From Micromonospora solifontis (GTDB taxonomy: Bacteria; Actinomycetota; Actinomycetes; Mycobacteriales; Micromonosporaceae), in the NCBI RefSeq assembly GCF_003725545.1, contig NZ_RJLN01000002.1, forward strand, positions 62,001-126,000: DNA of 64,000 nucleotides, given 5' to 3'. How positions within the stretch are numbered: position 1 is the first letter of the stretch; every line of letters begins with the position of its first letter. The notes below the pieces were generated by a model. It saw nothing but the letters and a program-made list of their open reading frames with translations. It did not search any database and was not told the origin of the DNA. This document shows, one piece after another, positions 2,502-64,000 of this stretch. The translations under genes were made by a program, and so were the position numbers.

Positions 2502-3695
2502 TCAGGAGTCGATCACCAGCCGGCGCGGCGGGGCCGGCGGGGCCGCCGCCCGGGCCGGGCCGGCCGGCGTCCAGGAGCCCAGCACGGCCGCCCGGGTGGC
2601 GCCGGTCACCGACGGGATCGCCCCCGGCAGCCCGTGCCAGGAGAGCCAGCCCAGCAGGGCGAACGCGTACGCCTCCTTGGCCTGCGCCGGCACCCCCAGC
2701 TCGTCGGTGGTGCGCAGCCGCCAGCGCCCCTCCCCCAGCGCCGCCAGCCGGCCGCGCAGAGTGGGATTACGCACCCCGCCGCCGGCCGCGACCACCTCGG
2801 TCACGCCATGCCGGTCGCAGGCGTCCGCGACCGTCCGGGCGGTCAGCTCGGTGAGGGTGGCGAGCACATCGTCGGCGTCCACCGGCTCGCCCAGGGCGGC
2901 CAGCCGGTCGTCCAGGTAGCCGGCGTGGAACAGCTCCTTGCCGGTGGACTTGGGCGGCGGCGCGGCGTAGTACGGCTCGGCGAGCAGCGACGCCAGCAGC
3001 CCCGGGTGCACCCGGCCGGCCGCCGCGCGGGCCCCGTCGAGGTCACAGGGGCGGCCGAGGAGGCGCCGGGCGGCGGCGTCCAGCAGGGCGTTGGCCGGCC
3101 CCACGTCGTACCCGAGGACGGGCGCGCCGGGGGCGACCACGGTGAGGTTGGCGACCCCGCCGAGATTGAGTGCGGCACGCGGGGCGGTGCCGCCCGAGCC
3201 TCGCGCGGCGCGCGAGGCGGTGGCCGGGTCGAGCAGCAGCGCGTCGAAGGCCGGCACCAGCGGCGCGCCCTGGCCGCCGGCCGCGACGTCCGCCGAGCGC
3301 AGGTCGTGCAGCACCGGTACGCCGACCCGCGCCGCCACCCGGGCCGGCGCGCCGAGCTGGAGGGTGCCCCGGGCCCGGCCCGCCTCGACCCAGTGGAAGA
3401 CGGTCTGCCCCGGCGACACCACCGCGTCGACCGCGCCGCCGGCCAGCTCGACGCCGGTCGCCGCCGCCTCGGCGAAGACCTCGCCGAGCCGGTTGTCGAG
3501 CCGGCAGACCGCCTCGATGGTGGTGGCCGCCGGGGGCAGCAGCGCCCCGATCGCGGCGCGCAGCGCGTCGTCGTAGTCGAGGCCGCGGTGCCCGAGCGGG
3601 CGCAGCCGCAGCGTCTCCCCGTCCCGGGTGAACTCGGCCGCCACCACGTCCACCCCGTCGTACGAGGTGCCCGACATCAGCCCGACGATTCGCAA
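2502..3695 (-). CDS. anmK: Anhydro-N-acetylmuramic acid kinase
   Basis: 397 residues. AnmK opens and phosphorylates 1,6-anhydroMurNAc to MurNAc-6-phosphate during peptidoglycan recycling. The N-terminal [14 protein letters not shown] is the family's ATP-binding signature; later motifs include [11 protein letters not shown] and [16 protein letters not shown]. The start is a TTG at 3693-3695 giving LRIVGLMSG, which matches the usual family N-terminus (about five residues before the GLMSGTS block). That TTG lies at the very edge of a GGGCCC-type palindromic repeat (3694-3748), so the repeat forms its untranslated leader. It is downstream of the RNA methyltransferase gene on the same strand. Confidence 0.95.
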
Positions 3696-3748
3696 GGAAG
3701 GGCCCCTTCTTAACGCCTGCGGTAGAGGAAGGGCCCCTTCCTAACACC
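3694..3748. repeat. GGGCCC palindromic element, copy A
   Basis: About 55 bp between two co-directional genes. Both arms carry AGGAAGGGCCCCTTC, joined by an asymmetric centre TTAACGCCTGCGGTAGAG. The outer end supplies the TAG stop of the RNA methyltransferase gene (3741-3743), and the other end touches the TTG start of anmK. The centre is shared with copy B (31201-31254, inverted); copies C and D differ there. RNA from this element would form a stable hairpin and could terminate transcription. Confidence 0.85.
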
Positions 3749-14212: not shown

Positions 14213-14253
14213 CGAAAAGAGTGGCCGCTCCGCCGCGGAGGCCACTCTTTTCG
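14213..14253. terminator. Strong bidirectional intrinsic terminator
   Basis: A 14-bp perfect stem (CGAAAAGAGTGGCC, 14213-14226, with 14240-14253) with a 13-base loop and A/T-rich outer ends, giving a short U-run in both directions. It lies between the convergent LytR_C and suhB genes and is among the best terminators in the window. Confidence 0.85.
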
Positions 14254-17647: not shown

Positions 17648-17689
17648 AAAGCCGGCCGGAGGCCCCCACGGGGACCTCCGGCCGGCTTT
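17648..17689 (+). terminator. Strong intrinsic terminator after DUF7455
   Basis: A 15-bp perfect stem (AAAGCCGGCCGGAGG, 17648-17662, with 17675-17689) with a 12-base loop; the 3' arm ends CTTTC. Located 23 bases after the stop codon. Confidence 0.85.
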
Positions 17690-31195: not shown

Positions 31196-31200
31196 GAGGC

Positions 31201-31254
31201 GTTAGAAGGGGGCCCTTTCTCTACCGCAGGCGTTAACAGGGGGCCCTTCCTTAC
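31201..31254. repeat. GGGCCC palindromic element, copy B (inverted)
   Basis: 54 bp between convergent sigma and acetyltransferase genes. In reverse complement it aligns with copy A, including the asymmetric centre TTAACGCCTGCGGTAGAG. The TAA stop of the acetyltransferase gene (31251-31253) lies inside the element. Confidence 0.85.
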
Positions 31255-33809
31255 AGCCGGCGGGGGCCGGTGTCGGGGCGGGGCGCCTCCGTGCCGGTGC
31301 GGACCGTGGCGTGCAGCACCGAGATGCCGTCCGGGCGGGCCAGCACCGGGTTGAGGGTGAGCGAGCGGACCCGGGGCTGCTCGTCGGCCAGCCGCCCGAC
31401 CCGCAGCAGCAGGTCGACCAGGGCCGCCAGGTCCACCGGCGCGGCGCCCCGGTGGCCGCGCAGCAGCGGCGCCGCGCGTGGCTCGTCGACCAGCTCGGCG
31501 GCGTCCCGGTCGGTCAGCGGCACCGCCCGCCAGGCCCGGTCGCCGAGCAGCTCGGTGGCGACGCCGCCCAGCCCGAAGCCGACCACCGGGCCGAACGCCG
31601 GGTCCTCCACCAGCTCCACCACGCAGGCCACGCCGGGCGCGACCATCGGCTGGACCAGGACGTCCGCACCGAAGACCGGGGCCATCTCGGCGTACGCGCG
31701 GCGCAGCGCCGCGGGGTCGGCCACGTCGAGCCGGACCGCGCCGAGGTCGAGCCGGTGCCGCAGGCCCGGCGCGGCCGCCTTGAGGGCGACCGGCCAGCCG
31801 AGCCGCTCGGCCGCCGCGATCGCCGCGTCCGCCGAGGACGCGTGCGCCGATCCGACCACCTCGATCCCGTACGCCCCGAGCAGCGCCGCCGGGTCCGCGC
31901 CGTCGGCGCGCAGCGCCGCGTGCCCGGCCAGCCGGTCCACCCCGTCCAGCTCGGGCAGCACCCCGGGCGGGCGGCGCAGCCAGTCCGCGTACCTGGCGAC
32001 CCGCGCGAGGGCCCGGACCGCCTCCTCCACGCTCGGGTACGCCGGCACCCCGGCGGGCACCCGGCCGGCGAGGAAGGTCGCCACCACCGGCTTGCCGGTG
32101 GCCCGCGCGTCGGGCAGCGCGGCGGTGAAGTCCGCCTCCGGGTCGGTGAGCTGGCCGGGCAGCGGCGGGGCGAAGACGGCCACCACGGCGTCCACCCGCT
32201 CGTCGGCGGTGGCGGCGGCGAGCGCGGCGGCGTACTCGGCGGCGCCGGCCCGGGGTCCGACGTCGTGCGGGTAGCCGTCGGCCACGGTGAGCCCCTGGGC
32301 GGCGCAGGCGGTGGCGGCCAGCCCGGTCAGCGCCGAGGAGTTGCCGACCACGGCGACCCGGCGGCCCGCCGGCAACGGCTGGTGCGCCAGCAGCACGCCG
32401 ACGTCGAGCAGTTCGGCGACGGTGTCCACCCGGATCACCCCGGACTGGGCGAAGAGCGCGCTGACCGCGGAGGTGTCCAGGGCCGGGCTCCCGTCGCCGA
32501 CGCCCGGCGGGCGGGCCAGCGAGGCGAGCGCCACGATGGGCTTGCTCCGGCCGATCCGCCTCGCCAGCCGGGCGAACTTGCGCGGGTTGCCGAAGGTCTC
32601 CAGGTAGAGCGTGATGACGTCGGTGCCCGGGTCGTCCTGCCAGTACTGGAGCAGGTCGTTGCCGGAGACGTCGGCCCGGTTGCCGGCGGAGACGAAGCTG
32701 GACAGGCCCAGGCCGCGCCGCGACGCCTCGGCGAGCAGGGCCACCCCGAACGCCCCGGACTGGCTGAACACGCCGACCCGGCCGGCGGCGGGCAGCGCCG
32801 GGGCGAGGGTGGCGTTGAGGCGTACCTTCTCATCGGTGTTGGCGACGCCGAGGCAGTTCGGCCCGACCACCCGCATGCCGGCCCGGTGGGCGGCCCGGAC
32901 CAGGGCGCGCTGGGCGGCCGCCCCGGCCGGGCCAGACTCGGCGAACCCGGCGGAGATGACCACCAGGCCGTGCGCGCCCGCCTTCGCGGCGTCGGCGACC
33001 ACGTCCGTGGCCGCCTCCGGGGCGACCGCCACCACGGCGAGGTCGATCTCGGCCCCGGCGTCGGCCGCCGACGGGTACGCGGGCAGTCCCGCCACGGTCG
33101 CCGCGGTCGGGTGCACCGGGACGAGCGTGCCGGTGAAGCCGCCGTCGCGCAGGTGCCCGAGCAGGGCCGCGCCGACGCCCTGGCCGGTGGTGCTGGCCCC
33201 GTACACGGCGATGCCGCGTGGGGCGAGCAGCCGGGCGATCGACCGGGCCTCGGTGCGGTGCTCCCGGCCGCGCTGCACCTCCAGGGTCGCCTCGGTGGGG
33301 GCGATCGGGAAGCTCAGGTGCACCACGCCGTCGGCGTACTGGCGCGCGATCTGGTAACCGAAGTCGGAGAAGACCCGCAGCATCGCCCCGTTGGCCGGGA
33401 GCACCTCGGCGACGAAGTGCACGATGCCGTACCGGCGGGCCGTGTCGGCCAGGTGCTCCAGCAGCACCGAGCCGATCCCCCGGCCCTGGTAGGCGTCCTC
33501 CACCACGAAGGCCACCTCGGCCTCCGGCGAGGCGGGGCCGAGCCGCTCGTACCGGCCCACGGCGACGATCCGGTCGCCGGCCAGCACCACGAACGCCTCC
33601 CGGTCGCGGTGGTCGACGTTGACGAACCGGTGCAGGTCCCGCTCCGGGATGCGCGGGTACGGCGAGAAGTAGCGCAGATAGCGGGTGCGCTCGGAGAAAC
33701 GCGAGTGCATCGCCACGATGGCCGTAGCGTCGTCCGGACGGATCTGTCGCAGCTGGACGGTCGTGCCGTCGCTGAGCAGCACGTCCACCGGTTGCTCGAC
33801 GGTTGTCAC
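31251..33809 (-). CDS. Protein lysine acetyltransferase: GNAT domain fused to acyl-CoA synthetase-like domains (Pat-type)
   Basis: 852 residues. Residues about 15-165 are a GNAT acetyltransferase (VEDAYQGRGIGSVLLEHLAD is its acetyl-CoA loop). Residues about 195-640 match the CoA-binding and ligase-CoA domains of ADP-forming acetyl-CoA synthetases (VFSQSGAFGVALLAEA), and 640-850 the ATP-grasp beta domain. The phosphohistidine loop that normally reads SHTG is SPALDTSAV here, so the synthetase part is probably a sensor rather than an enzyme, as in bacterial Pat proteins. The adjacent AcuC deacetylase suggests reversible acetylation of acetyl-CoA synthetase. GNAT is N-terminal here, unlike the enterobacterial order. 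The stop codon is donated by repeat copy B. Confidence 0.9.
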   Translation of the reverse strand: MTTVEQPVDVLLSDGTTVQLRQIRPDDATAIVAMHSRFSERTRYLRYFSPYPRIPERDLHRFVNVDHRDREAFVVLAGDRIVAVGRYERLGPASPEAEVAFVVEDAYQGRGIGSVLLEHLADTARRYGIVHFVAEVLPANGAMLRVFSDFGYQIARQYADGVVHLSFPIAPTEATLEVQRGREHRTEARSIARLLAPRGIAVYGASTTGQGVGAALLGHLRDGGFTGTLVPVHPTAATVAGLPAYPSAADAGAEIDLAVVAVAPEAATDVVADAAKAGAHGLVVISAGFAESGPAGAAAQRALVRAAHRAGMRVVGPNCLGVANTDEKVRLNATLAPALPAAGRVGVFSQSGAFGVALLAEASRRGLGLSSFVSAGNRADVSGNDLLQYWQDDPGTDVITLYLETFGNPRKFARLARRIGRSKPIVALASLARPPGVGDGSPALDTSAVSALFAQSGVIRVDTVAELLDVGVLLAHQPLPAGRRVAVVGNSSALTGLAATACAAQGLTVADGYPHDVGPRAGAAEYAAALAAATADERVDAVVAVFAPPLPGQLTDPEADFTAALPDARATGKPVVATFLAGRVPAGVPAYPSVEEAVRALARVARYADWLRRPPGVLPELDGVDRLAGHAALRADGADPAALLGAYGIEVVGSAHASSADAAIAAAERLGWPVALKAAAPGLRHRLDLGAVRLDVADPAALRRAYAEMAPVFGADVLVQPMVAPGVACVVELVEDPAFGPVVGFGLGGVATELLGDRAWRAVPLTDRDAAELVDEPRAAPLLRGHRGAAPVDLAALVDLLLRVGRLADEQPRVRSLTLNPVLARPDGISVLHATVRTGTEAPRPDTGPRRL

Positions 33810-37725: not shown

Positions 37726-37782
37726 GTAAGGAAGGGCCCCTTATTAACGTCTCCTGCATAGCAGGGGCCCCCTCCTAACACC
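37726..37782. repeat. GGGCCC palindromic element, copy C
   Basis: 57 bp with arms GTAAGGAAGGGCCCC and GGGGCCCCCTCCTAAC. The centre (TTAACGTCTCCTGCATAG) is related to but distinct from copies A and B. It lies between co-directional asparaginase (stop 14 bases away) and DUF5522 (start nine bases away). Confidence 0.8.
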
Positions 37783-47566: not shown

Positions 47567-47581
47567 AGGCATGAACGCCGC

Positions 47582-47611
47582 GAGCGCGGCAGGGGATCCC
47601 CTGCCGCGCTC
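47582..47611 (-). terminator. Perfect 30-bp palindrome, probable nrdJ terminator
   Basis: GAGCGCGGCAGGG (47582 on) mirrored through a central GATC to CCCTGCCGCGCTC (47611). Located 16 bases beyond the nrdJ stop codon. Confidence 0.75.
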
Positions 47612-47627
47612 ACGGAACGGACCAGCG

Positions 47628-61358: not shown

Positions 61359-61371
61359 CCTGACCGACCCC

Positions 61372-61408
61372 GGCAGCCCCCGGTCCCCTGACGGGACCGG
61401 GGGCTGCC
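61372..61408 (+). terminator. Strong intrinsic terminator after DUF349
   Basis: A 16-bp perfect stem (GGCAGCCCCCGGTCCC, 61372-61387, with 61393-61408) and a 5-base loop, 13 bases after the stop codon. Confidence 0.8.
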
Positions 61409-61413
61409 GCGTG

Positions 61414-63283
<1,870 letters not shown>

Positions 63284-63284
63284 G

Positions 63285-63338
63285 TAAGGAGGGGCCCCTT
63301 TTTAACAGACGTCTGTTAAAAAGGGGCCCCTCCTTACA
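63285..63338. repeat. GGGCCC palindromic element, copy D (perfect 54-bp palindrome)
   Basis: Each 27-bp half begins GTAAGGAGGGGCCCCTTT and ends at the central GACGTC; the two halves are exact reverse complements with no spacer. It lies between the convergent cellulase and miaB genes; the miaB TAA stop (63334-63336) is inside it. Confidence 0.9.
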
Positions 63339-64000
63339 CCCCGGCGCAGCCGCCGGTGGGCGCGGGCGCCGCGGCCGGCGCGCCGATCGTCGGCAGCCCC
63401 AGCAGCACCCCGGGGGTACGCGGGGCGCGCCCCGCCTCGGCGGCGTCGCCGGCCCGGGTCCGCCGGTGCGACAGCGGCTCCCCGTCGGCGTTGAGGTGGT
63501 GCGGGGCGGCGTACGTGACGGTGGTGTGCACGATGTCGCCGGGGCGGATCTGCCCGGCCAGCGAGCCGGCGTCGCCGAGCTGGCCGTTCGCTCCGGCTGC
63601 GCCGGTCGCGAAGTGCACCAGGCGGCCGTCGCGGGCCCGGCCGGACATCCGGCCGGTGCGCTCGTCCTTGCGCCCCTCGCCGACGGCGACCAGCACCTCG
63701 ACCGTTTCGCCCACGAGCTTCTTGTTCTCCGCCCAGGTGATCTCCTCGACCGTGGCGATCAGCCGCTCGTAGCGCTCCTGCACGACCTGCTTGGGCAGCT
63801 GACCGTCCATGGTCGCCGCCGGGGTGCCGGGGCGCTTGGAGTACTGGAAGGTGAACGCCGAGGAGAAGCGCGCCTCGCGGACCACGTCGAGGGTGCGCTC
63901 GAAGTCCGCGTCGGTCTCGCCGGGGAAGCCGACGATGATGTCGGTGGTGATCGCCGCGTCCGGCATCGCCGCCCGGACCTTCTCGATGATGCCCAGGTAC
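63334..64000 (-). CDS. miaB: tRNA-2-methylthio-N6-dimethylallyladenosine synthase, C-terminal part
   Basis: The last 222 codons lie in the window. MiaB is a radical-SAM methylthiotransferase acting on the MiaA product. Visible: [33 protein letters not shown] (given here in two parts, ending [13 protein letters not shown]), the [16 protein letters not shown] motif that follows the radical SAM core, and the C-terminal TRAM domain ([20 protein letters not shown] onward). The iron-sulfur cysteines lie outside the window. The TAA stop is inside palindromic element D. Confidence 0.96.

Follow-up and report, generated by a model that had tools for sequence, protein, structure and literature searches.

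The perfect palindrome between a cellulase gene and miaB in Micromonospora solifontis belongs to a family of dispersed palindromic elements of Micromonospora, approximately 54-60 bp long, which probably serve, as far as their letters and their placement indicate, as two-way transcription stop signals at gene ends. A bidirectional terminator or 3'-end protector is the likeliest role suggested by the position of the copies and by their substitutions. The combined reading, to which we assign a probability of about 0.6, is that of a bidirectional 3'-end hairpin whose arms change as a unit, through template switching, copy replacement or both. The coordinates of the features found in the window, i.e. 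the whole stretch of 64,000 nucleotides that was analysed, are collected in the table.

Table. Palindrome, neighbouring genes and further element copies in the window.
Feature	Positions	Strand	Basis
Left arm of the perfect palindrome (B form)	63284..63310	+	inverted-repeat check, RNA fold 63280-63341
Right arm, with miaB stop codon (63334-63336, minus strand)	63311..63337	+	
Symmetric centre TTAACAGACGTCTGTTAA of the palindrome	63302..63319	.	
GH5 cellulase with CBM2; stop codon adjoins palindrome	61652..63283	+	
miaB, 3' part, running off the window; stop codon inside palindrome	63334..63999	-	
A-form element, asymmetric centre, 3' of minus-strand gene	3690..3746	+	
A-form element between convergent genes	31200..31256	-	
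Variant A-form element, 3' of minus-strand gene	37726..37780	+	48.9 bits, E 2.5e-12

The palindrome comprises 54 bases in two arms (27 + 27 nt) that are 100% complementary, with a spacer of 0 nt. An earlier sequence-only reading had correctly described an exact, loop-free 54-bp palindrome with two 27-nt arms at this place, but its coordinates (63285-63338) were one base off, 63284-63337 being correct. With the cellulase ORF finishing at 63283 and that of miaB at 63334, the palindrome fills the entire space between the two genes and takes in the miaB stop codon; miaB ends with GCAGV-TAA in this genome, and the TAA lies within the element. The name miaB is the assignment of the sequence-only reading, and Pfam gave only a sub-threshold Radical_SAM match on the fragment. 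When the 64 kb were searched for inverted repeats, loops of 0-10 being allowed, the palindrome scored 27 and the next best 17; at the GC content of the window (73.5%), we estimate that a perfect palindrome of this size would arise by chance in 64 kb with a probability of approximately 1e-9 (0.3055^27 x 64,000). No Rfam match at gathering scores was obtained within the 64-kb window. Strong hairpins with other sequences are located near gene 3' ends at window positions 14213-14253, 17648-17689, 47578-47615 and 61371-61409; two of these, at 14213 and 17648, lie between convergent genes and show A-run/T-run ends.

The element exists in two main forms, the fullest version being GGTGTAAGG...CCTTACACC. 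The B form is symmetric about TTAACAGACGTCTGTTAA and is present in 7 copies in the genome of origin (pattern with 3 mismatches allowed), 6 of them in a convergent and 1 in a tandem gene setting; of 157 pattern copies, 84 (76 + 8) are centred on its inner CAGACGTCTG. The A form has a conserved centre of its own, the asymmetric TTAACGCCTGCGGTAGA or near variants of it, and is present in 26 copies in the same genome (pattern with 2 mismatches allowed). With sequence models at E <= 0.001, at least 51 B-model and at least 85 A-model matches were obtained in this genome among the best 150 candidates scored, counts that include both strands and cross-matches; at an equal threshold there were at least 52 A-model against at least 21 B-model matches, the B-model figure including both strands. 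Of the remaining three copies in the window, two have the exact TTAACGCCTGCGGTAGA centre and the third matches the A-form model; these copies are therefore the A form or a variant thereof, and not decayed versions of the cellulase-miaB palindrome. The suggestion of the sequence-only reading that they were degenerate relatives of a possible founder is not supported, given this separate conserved centre, the occurrence of the A form in more genomes (29/61 against 20/61 in the genus) and its greater number of matches in the genome of origin. The cellulase-miaB palindrome is, in fact, an ordinary copy for its family.

Further variation was observed. A subtype with a GCATAGC-type centre in place of GGTAGA occurs at the mraY site of genome G006 (L357) and at window 37726-37780. 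In composite elements a third inverted unit is joined to an A element, and almost every composite has a centre of its own (L374 in genome G021, L097, L123, L139, L240 and others). The A element at 3690..3746 is present at the same place in G021 and absent in G048, G049 and G060. A simple GAAGGGCCCCT hairpin pattern was also tried as a definition of the family and rejected: it is sparse (14/61 genomes), so that this motif by itself is not the family. Several contigs of the genome of origin (C35, C61, C72 and C124; loci L183, L176, L002 and L171) have elements at, or within approximately 150 bases of, their ends; the repeat may therefore break the draft assembly, and the copies counted may fall short of the true number.

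In the samples searched, the palindromic repeat is nearly confined to one genus. Matches to the B model (E <= 1e-8) were found in 20 of 61 Micromonospora genomes, including the genome of origin and some single-contig genomes, and matches to the A model in 29 of 61, copy counts per genome being lower bounds with the best 93-94 candidates scored at most. The symmetric pattern was found in 15 of 200 genomes of the family, namely 14 of 38 in the same genus and 1 of 162 outside it; a reversed control pattern gave zero matches in the same 200 genomes. A scan of named genomes yielded at least 115 stretches, and among the 80 listed 79 came from Micromonospora and 1 from a Micromonosporaceae bacterium. 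A phage or plasmid origin found no blastn support, one form having been compared with each collection: a 60-nt B sequence had no match among phages, and a 57-nt A-like sequence had none among plasmids. No published description of this palindrome family was found in titles and abstract openings, with motif letters included among the queries and few subscription journals covered. The family belongs to a known kind, that of dispersed extragenic palindromes placed like gene-end hairpins, and is itself undescribed in the literature searched.

The position of the copies relative to genes was determined with a codon-usage gene caller trained on the fetched DNA rather than from curated annotation. The 136 distinct symmetric copies comprise 76 in convergent, 53 in tandem and 2 in divergent gene settings, together with 5 at a locus edge, against 73 convergent, 249 tandem and 144 divergent background gaps of at least 40 bp in the named loci; the convergent excess (binomial p 2e-28) and the divergent deficit (p 2e-18) are only a guide, as the copies are related. 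Of 162 pattern copies, 88 are in convergent, 64 in tandem and 5 in divergent settings, with 4 more at an edge and 1 within a gene; for this set no symmetry was demanded beyond the fixed letters, some of these letters being paired by construction. When a stop codon faces the pattern copy, the centre is at most 40 bp from it in 134 of 156 cases (median 30 bp), and in 42 of the 162 copies a stop codon is at most 27 bp from the element centre. The A copies are more loosely placed (n=30: 15 convergent, 10 tandem, 3 in a called gene, 1 divergent and 1 at an edge).

The same gene ends were then compared among relatives. For miaB, 30 loci were fetched from the 61 genomes searched (one of them, L304, is uninformative yet counted among the 30), and the palindrome is present only at the locus of origin. 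A hairpin scoring at least 9 is found within 90 bases of the miaB stop in 24 of the 30 loci, the locus of origin included, against 4 of 351 coding control windows; most of the relatives examined thus have another hairpin at this place. These miaB-end hairpins are of several kinds, and since one kind has GGAAGGGCCCC arms resembling the units of the element, not all of them are unrelated to it in sequence. A short miaB-end hairpin, GGAAGGGCCCCT-loop-AGGGGCCCTTCC, whose arms resemble the A/B units, was seen in G002, G024, G045, G046, G068 and others. The cellulase-miaB gene pair itself is followed through two further genomes: in G049 the gap contains a different hairpin, and in G021 it contains an A element and then a third unit that mirrors the second. 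At the 28 other informative loci, TGA is the stop codon of MiaB, and GCAAH or GCATH commonly precedes it. Micromonospora sp. PLK6-60 has a B element after miaB with a different neighbour gene; the description of the palindrome as recent fits the cellulase-miaB site, where among the 30 miaB loci only the genome of origin has it.

Between two genes that we take, by eye from the protein sequences, to be mraY and ftsW, a B palindrome occupies the gap in 8 of 30 loci, inside a cell-wall gene cluster and upstream of a conserved block. Only 12 of the 22 loci without the palindrome have a hairpin scoring at least 9 at the mraY end, a count that weighs against the favoured role. As other hairpins are common at the same gene ends, the element occupies a place that is often given to them elsewhere.

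The RNA of the region 63280-63341 is predicted to fold at -49.2 kcal/mol on each strand, with 25 pairs in the stem (z -10 to -11.5; none of 200 shuffled sequences folded as well). Two observations count against a terminator: the asymmetric A copies, which occupy similar places, form much weaker folds (six folds of four copies, z between -0.55 and -3.67), and no U-tract follows the palindrome hairpin, a T-tail terminator scan having given no site there; actinobacterial terminators without a U-tract are known. Because transcripts from either side can form a hairpin of approximately 25 pairs, the likeliest role is that of a bidirectional 3'-end hairpin. The elements are mostly placed directly behind stop codons and take up gene ends that carry other hairpins in relatives; at the present site the element could act as transcription terminator, as protection of transcript ends, or as both, for miaB and the cellulase gene at once. 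With respect to pairing quality, raw mismatched cells number 23/1848 in convergent, 41/1344 in tandem and 13/105 in divergent settings, which suggests better pairing between convergent than between tandem genes; this was not retained, since perfect arms per copy (73/88 convergent, 46/64 tandem, 2/5 divergent) gave no significant difference between convergent and tandem settings (Fisher 0.11). Among the mismatches of tandem settings, G.U is no commoner than A.C (5 vs 10), although selection on the RNA would be expected to favour G.U; this, too, counts against the favoured role.

The two arms change together. At position 10 from the centre, 116 pattern copies have G (37), A (35), C (27) or T (5) with the complementary base at the mirror position, and 12 are mismatched; this position is therefore paired in 104 of 116 copies, against a mean of 34.8 and a maximum of 51 in 2000 shufflings of the halves. 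Halves were also shuffled within genomes only, with 56 of the 80 plain copies and 14 of the 34 composites entering the test (unlabelled copies or copies alone in their genome were dropped). Symmetry at six variable positions is found in 45 of the 56 plain copies; the shuffles average 19.5, and 0 of 3000 reach the observed value. The test is weaker for composites (10/14 symmetric, mean 6.1, reached by 73/3000 shuffles), which have 32 different 8-nt centres in 34 copies and arms that are fully paired at positions 4-22 in 21 of the 34. Where both neighbouring genes are homologous (21 sites, 72 copies), paired variation is seen in 49 of 441 columns and a mismatch in 12, in a set that was filtered for symmetry; the symmetric, orthologous-site and copy-similarity sets were all chosen partly by pairing. 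One gene-end site has 10 different palindromic copies, apparently from different genomes, which runs against the premise of the sequence-only reading that such palindromes normally decay. Its alternative of an actively maintained palindrome agrees with arms that remain paired while their sequence varies.

Template switching and copy replacement are both candidates for the coupling of the arms: these would be altered as a unit by hairpin-primed template switching, by replacement with another copy from the genome, or by both. At one site (L137 in genome G042), with neighbours that we take by eye from their protein sequences to be an epimerase and a reductase, the left flank of that same genome has been added to the right arm as an inverted copy, an addition that 7 orthologues lack. 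Such an inverted flank copy is clear at L137 and ambiguous at L136, so that the signature of template switching is clean at one site only. Copies are also alike within a genome, more so than at orthologous sites. Two copies share an identical outer-arm block in 312 of 454 pairs (69%) when they come from one genome, in 46 of 106 pairs (43%) when they come from the same site and in 1294 of 4095 pairs (32%) otherwise, a comparison based on 97 of 136 copies (unlabelled copies and those with a mismatch at any of the five positions used were dropped), of which one genome supplies 26.

Several other explanations of these observations have to be considered. The element could be selfish, a mobile repeat of MITE or REPIN-like type on which a transposase acts in trans, its location after stop codons reflecting mere tolerance where least harm is done. 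Many copies, paired inverted units, similarity within genomes, presence or absence at a site depending on the species and the less strict placement of the A form (3 of 30 in called genes, 1 divergent) are all consistent with such a repeat, which we nevertheless consider unlikely: the Y1 transposase domain PF01797 is absent from the genome of origin (93% complete) and from 14 of the 20 B-bearing genomes, and is about equally frequent without B (11/41) and with B (6/20); no clean target duplication is seen at the four window sites, where relatives differ by replaced stretches; and tolerance alone leaves unexplained the different hairpins that numerous relatives carry at this gene end. Mobilisation by a RAYT in particular finds no support, the Y1 (TnpA-REP) gene being absent from the genome of origin. 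In contig C39 of that genome (L169, 2001-3170), two A-type elements approximately 1.1 kb apart flank one gene, which by eye resembles one for an AbiEi-type protein. A broader proposal, rather unlikely as a whole, would combine mobility with the favoured role, in the form of a self-spreading bidirectional terminator that is confined almost to one genus, displaces native terminators, sometimes supplies the stop codon, is homogenised within the genome and has its arms kept identical by hairpin-primed template switching.

The coupled arms could alternatively result from ordinary selection for pairing, with stepwise compensatory mutations as in the terminators of Bacillus cereus. The 3'-end position and the raw mismatch rate, lowest in convergent settings, would fit this, but we regard it as improbable, since there is no preference for G.U, since position 10 takes all four bases and still pairs in most copies, and since 76-87% of the changed stem pairs in B. 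cereus had changed on one side only (PMC5381666), against the 49 paired and 12 mismatched columns found here, a comparison that is only rough given the symmetry-filtered copies and another time scale. Even less probable is a site acting at the DNA level where genes converge, for protein binding or chromosome structure (cruciform, gyrase, nucleoid protein). The shared symmetric centre, the convergent bias and a single-strand DNA fold of -30.4 kcal/mol could be cited in its favour; however, the shared centre may reflect only a recent common origin, the composites having many different centres, 64 of the 162 pattern copies are in tandem settings, and relatives often use a different hairpin at the same gene end. 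An assembly artefact or a chance palindrome has a negligible probability, even though some contigs of the genome of origin end in or beside elements: an artefact is excluded for the family by the single-contig genomes of other species that also carry the element (G006, G018, G019, G021, G022 and G076), and the pattern counts stand against zero matches of the reversed pattern in 200 genomes. The bidirectional 3'-end hairpin with arms that change as a unit is retained as the preferred reading.

How perfect stems are kept is an open question, and PMC8794818 describes as circumstantial the evidence that template switching takes part in maintaining short stems. The family is a natural test case, its halves changing together: it provides well over a hundred distinct natural copies, many of them at orthologous sites, and a position at which any base occurs and is yet mostly paired offers material for studying how perfect DNA hairpins persist. 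The element is also a compact candidate for a two-way terminator in actinomycetes.

Among known systems, bidirectional intrinsic (Rho-independent) terminators resemble the element in their stable hairpin on both strands, their location directly after stop codons and their frequent occurrence between convergent genes, whereas a near-identical sequence dispersed through genomes, a zero spacer, a stem of approximately 25 pairs and the lack of a U-tract set the element apart from them. In DNA-uptake sequences that form terminators (the subject of PMC1852404), a dispersed repeat doubles as a gene-end hairpin, as the element probably does. A GTAG or CGTC tag marks the foot of a REP palindrome. The B form, the cellulase-miaB copy included, has neither foot, and the A form has GGTAG beside its right unit. 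The element further shares with REP, BIME and REPIN elements and their RAYT transposases (the subject of PMC3116915, PMC2817692, PMC3733652 and PMC12306157, the GTAG and CGTC tags being named in PMC3733652) short palindromic units, inverted pairs, many extragenic copies and multi-unit composites; it differs from them by the absence of a Y1 transposase from the genome of origin, by its perfect symmetry and by the occupation of the same gene 3' ends in several species. Lastly, the RNA hairpins made by template switching (Monttinen and Loytynoja 2022, PMC8794818) are similar in their perfect stems, their paired changes and the inverted flank copy, here seen at one site, and, unlike them, the element of Micromonospora forms a dispersed repeat family whose copies are alike within a genome.
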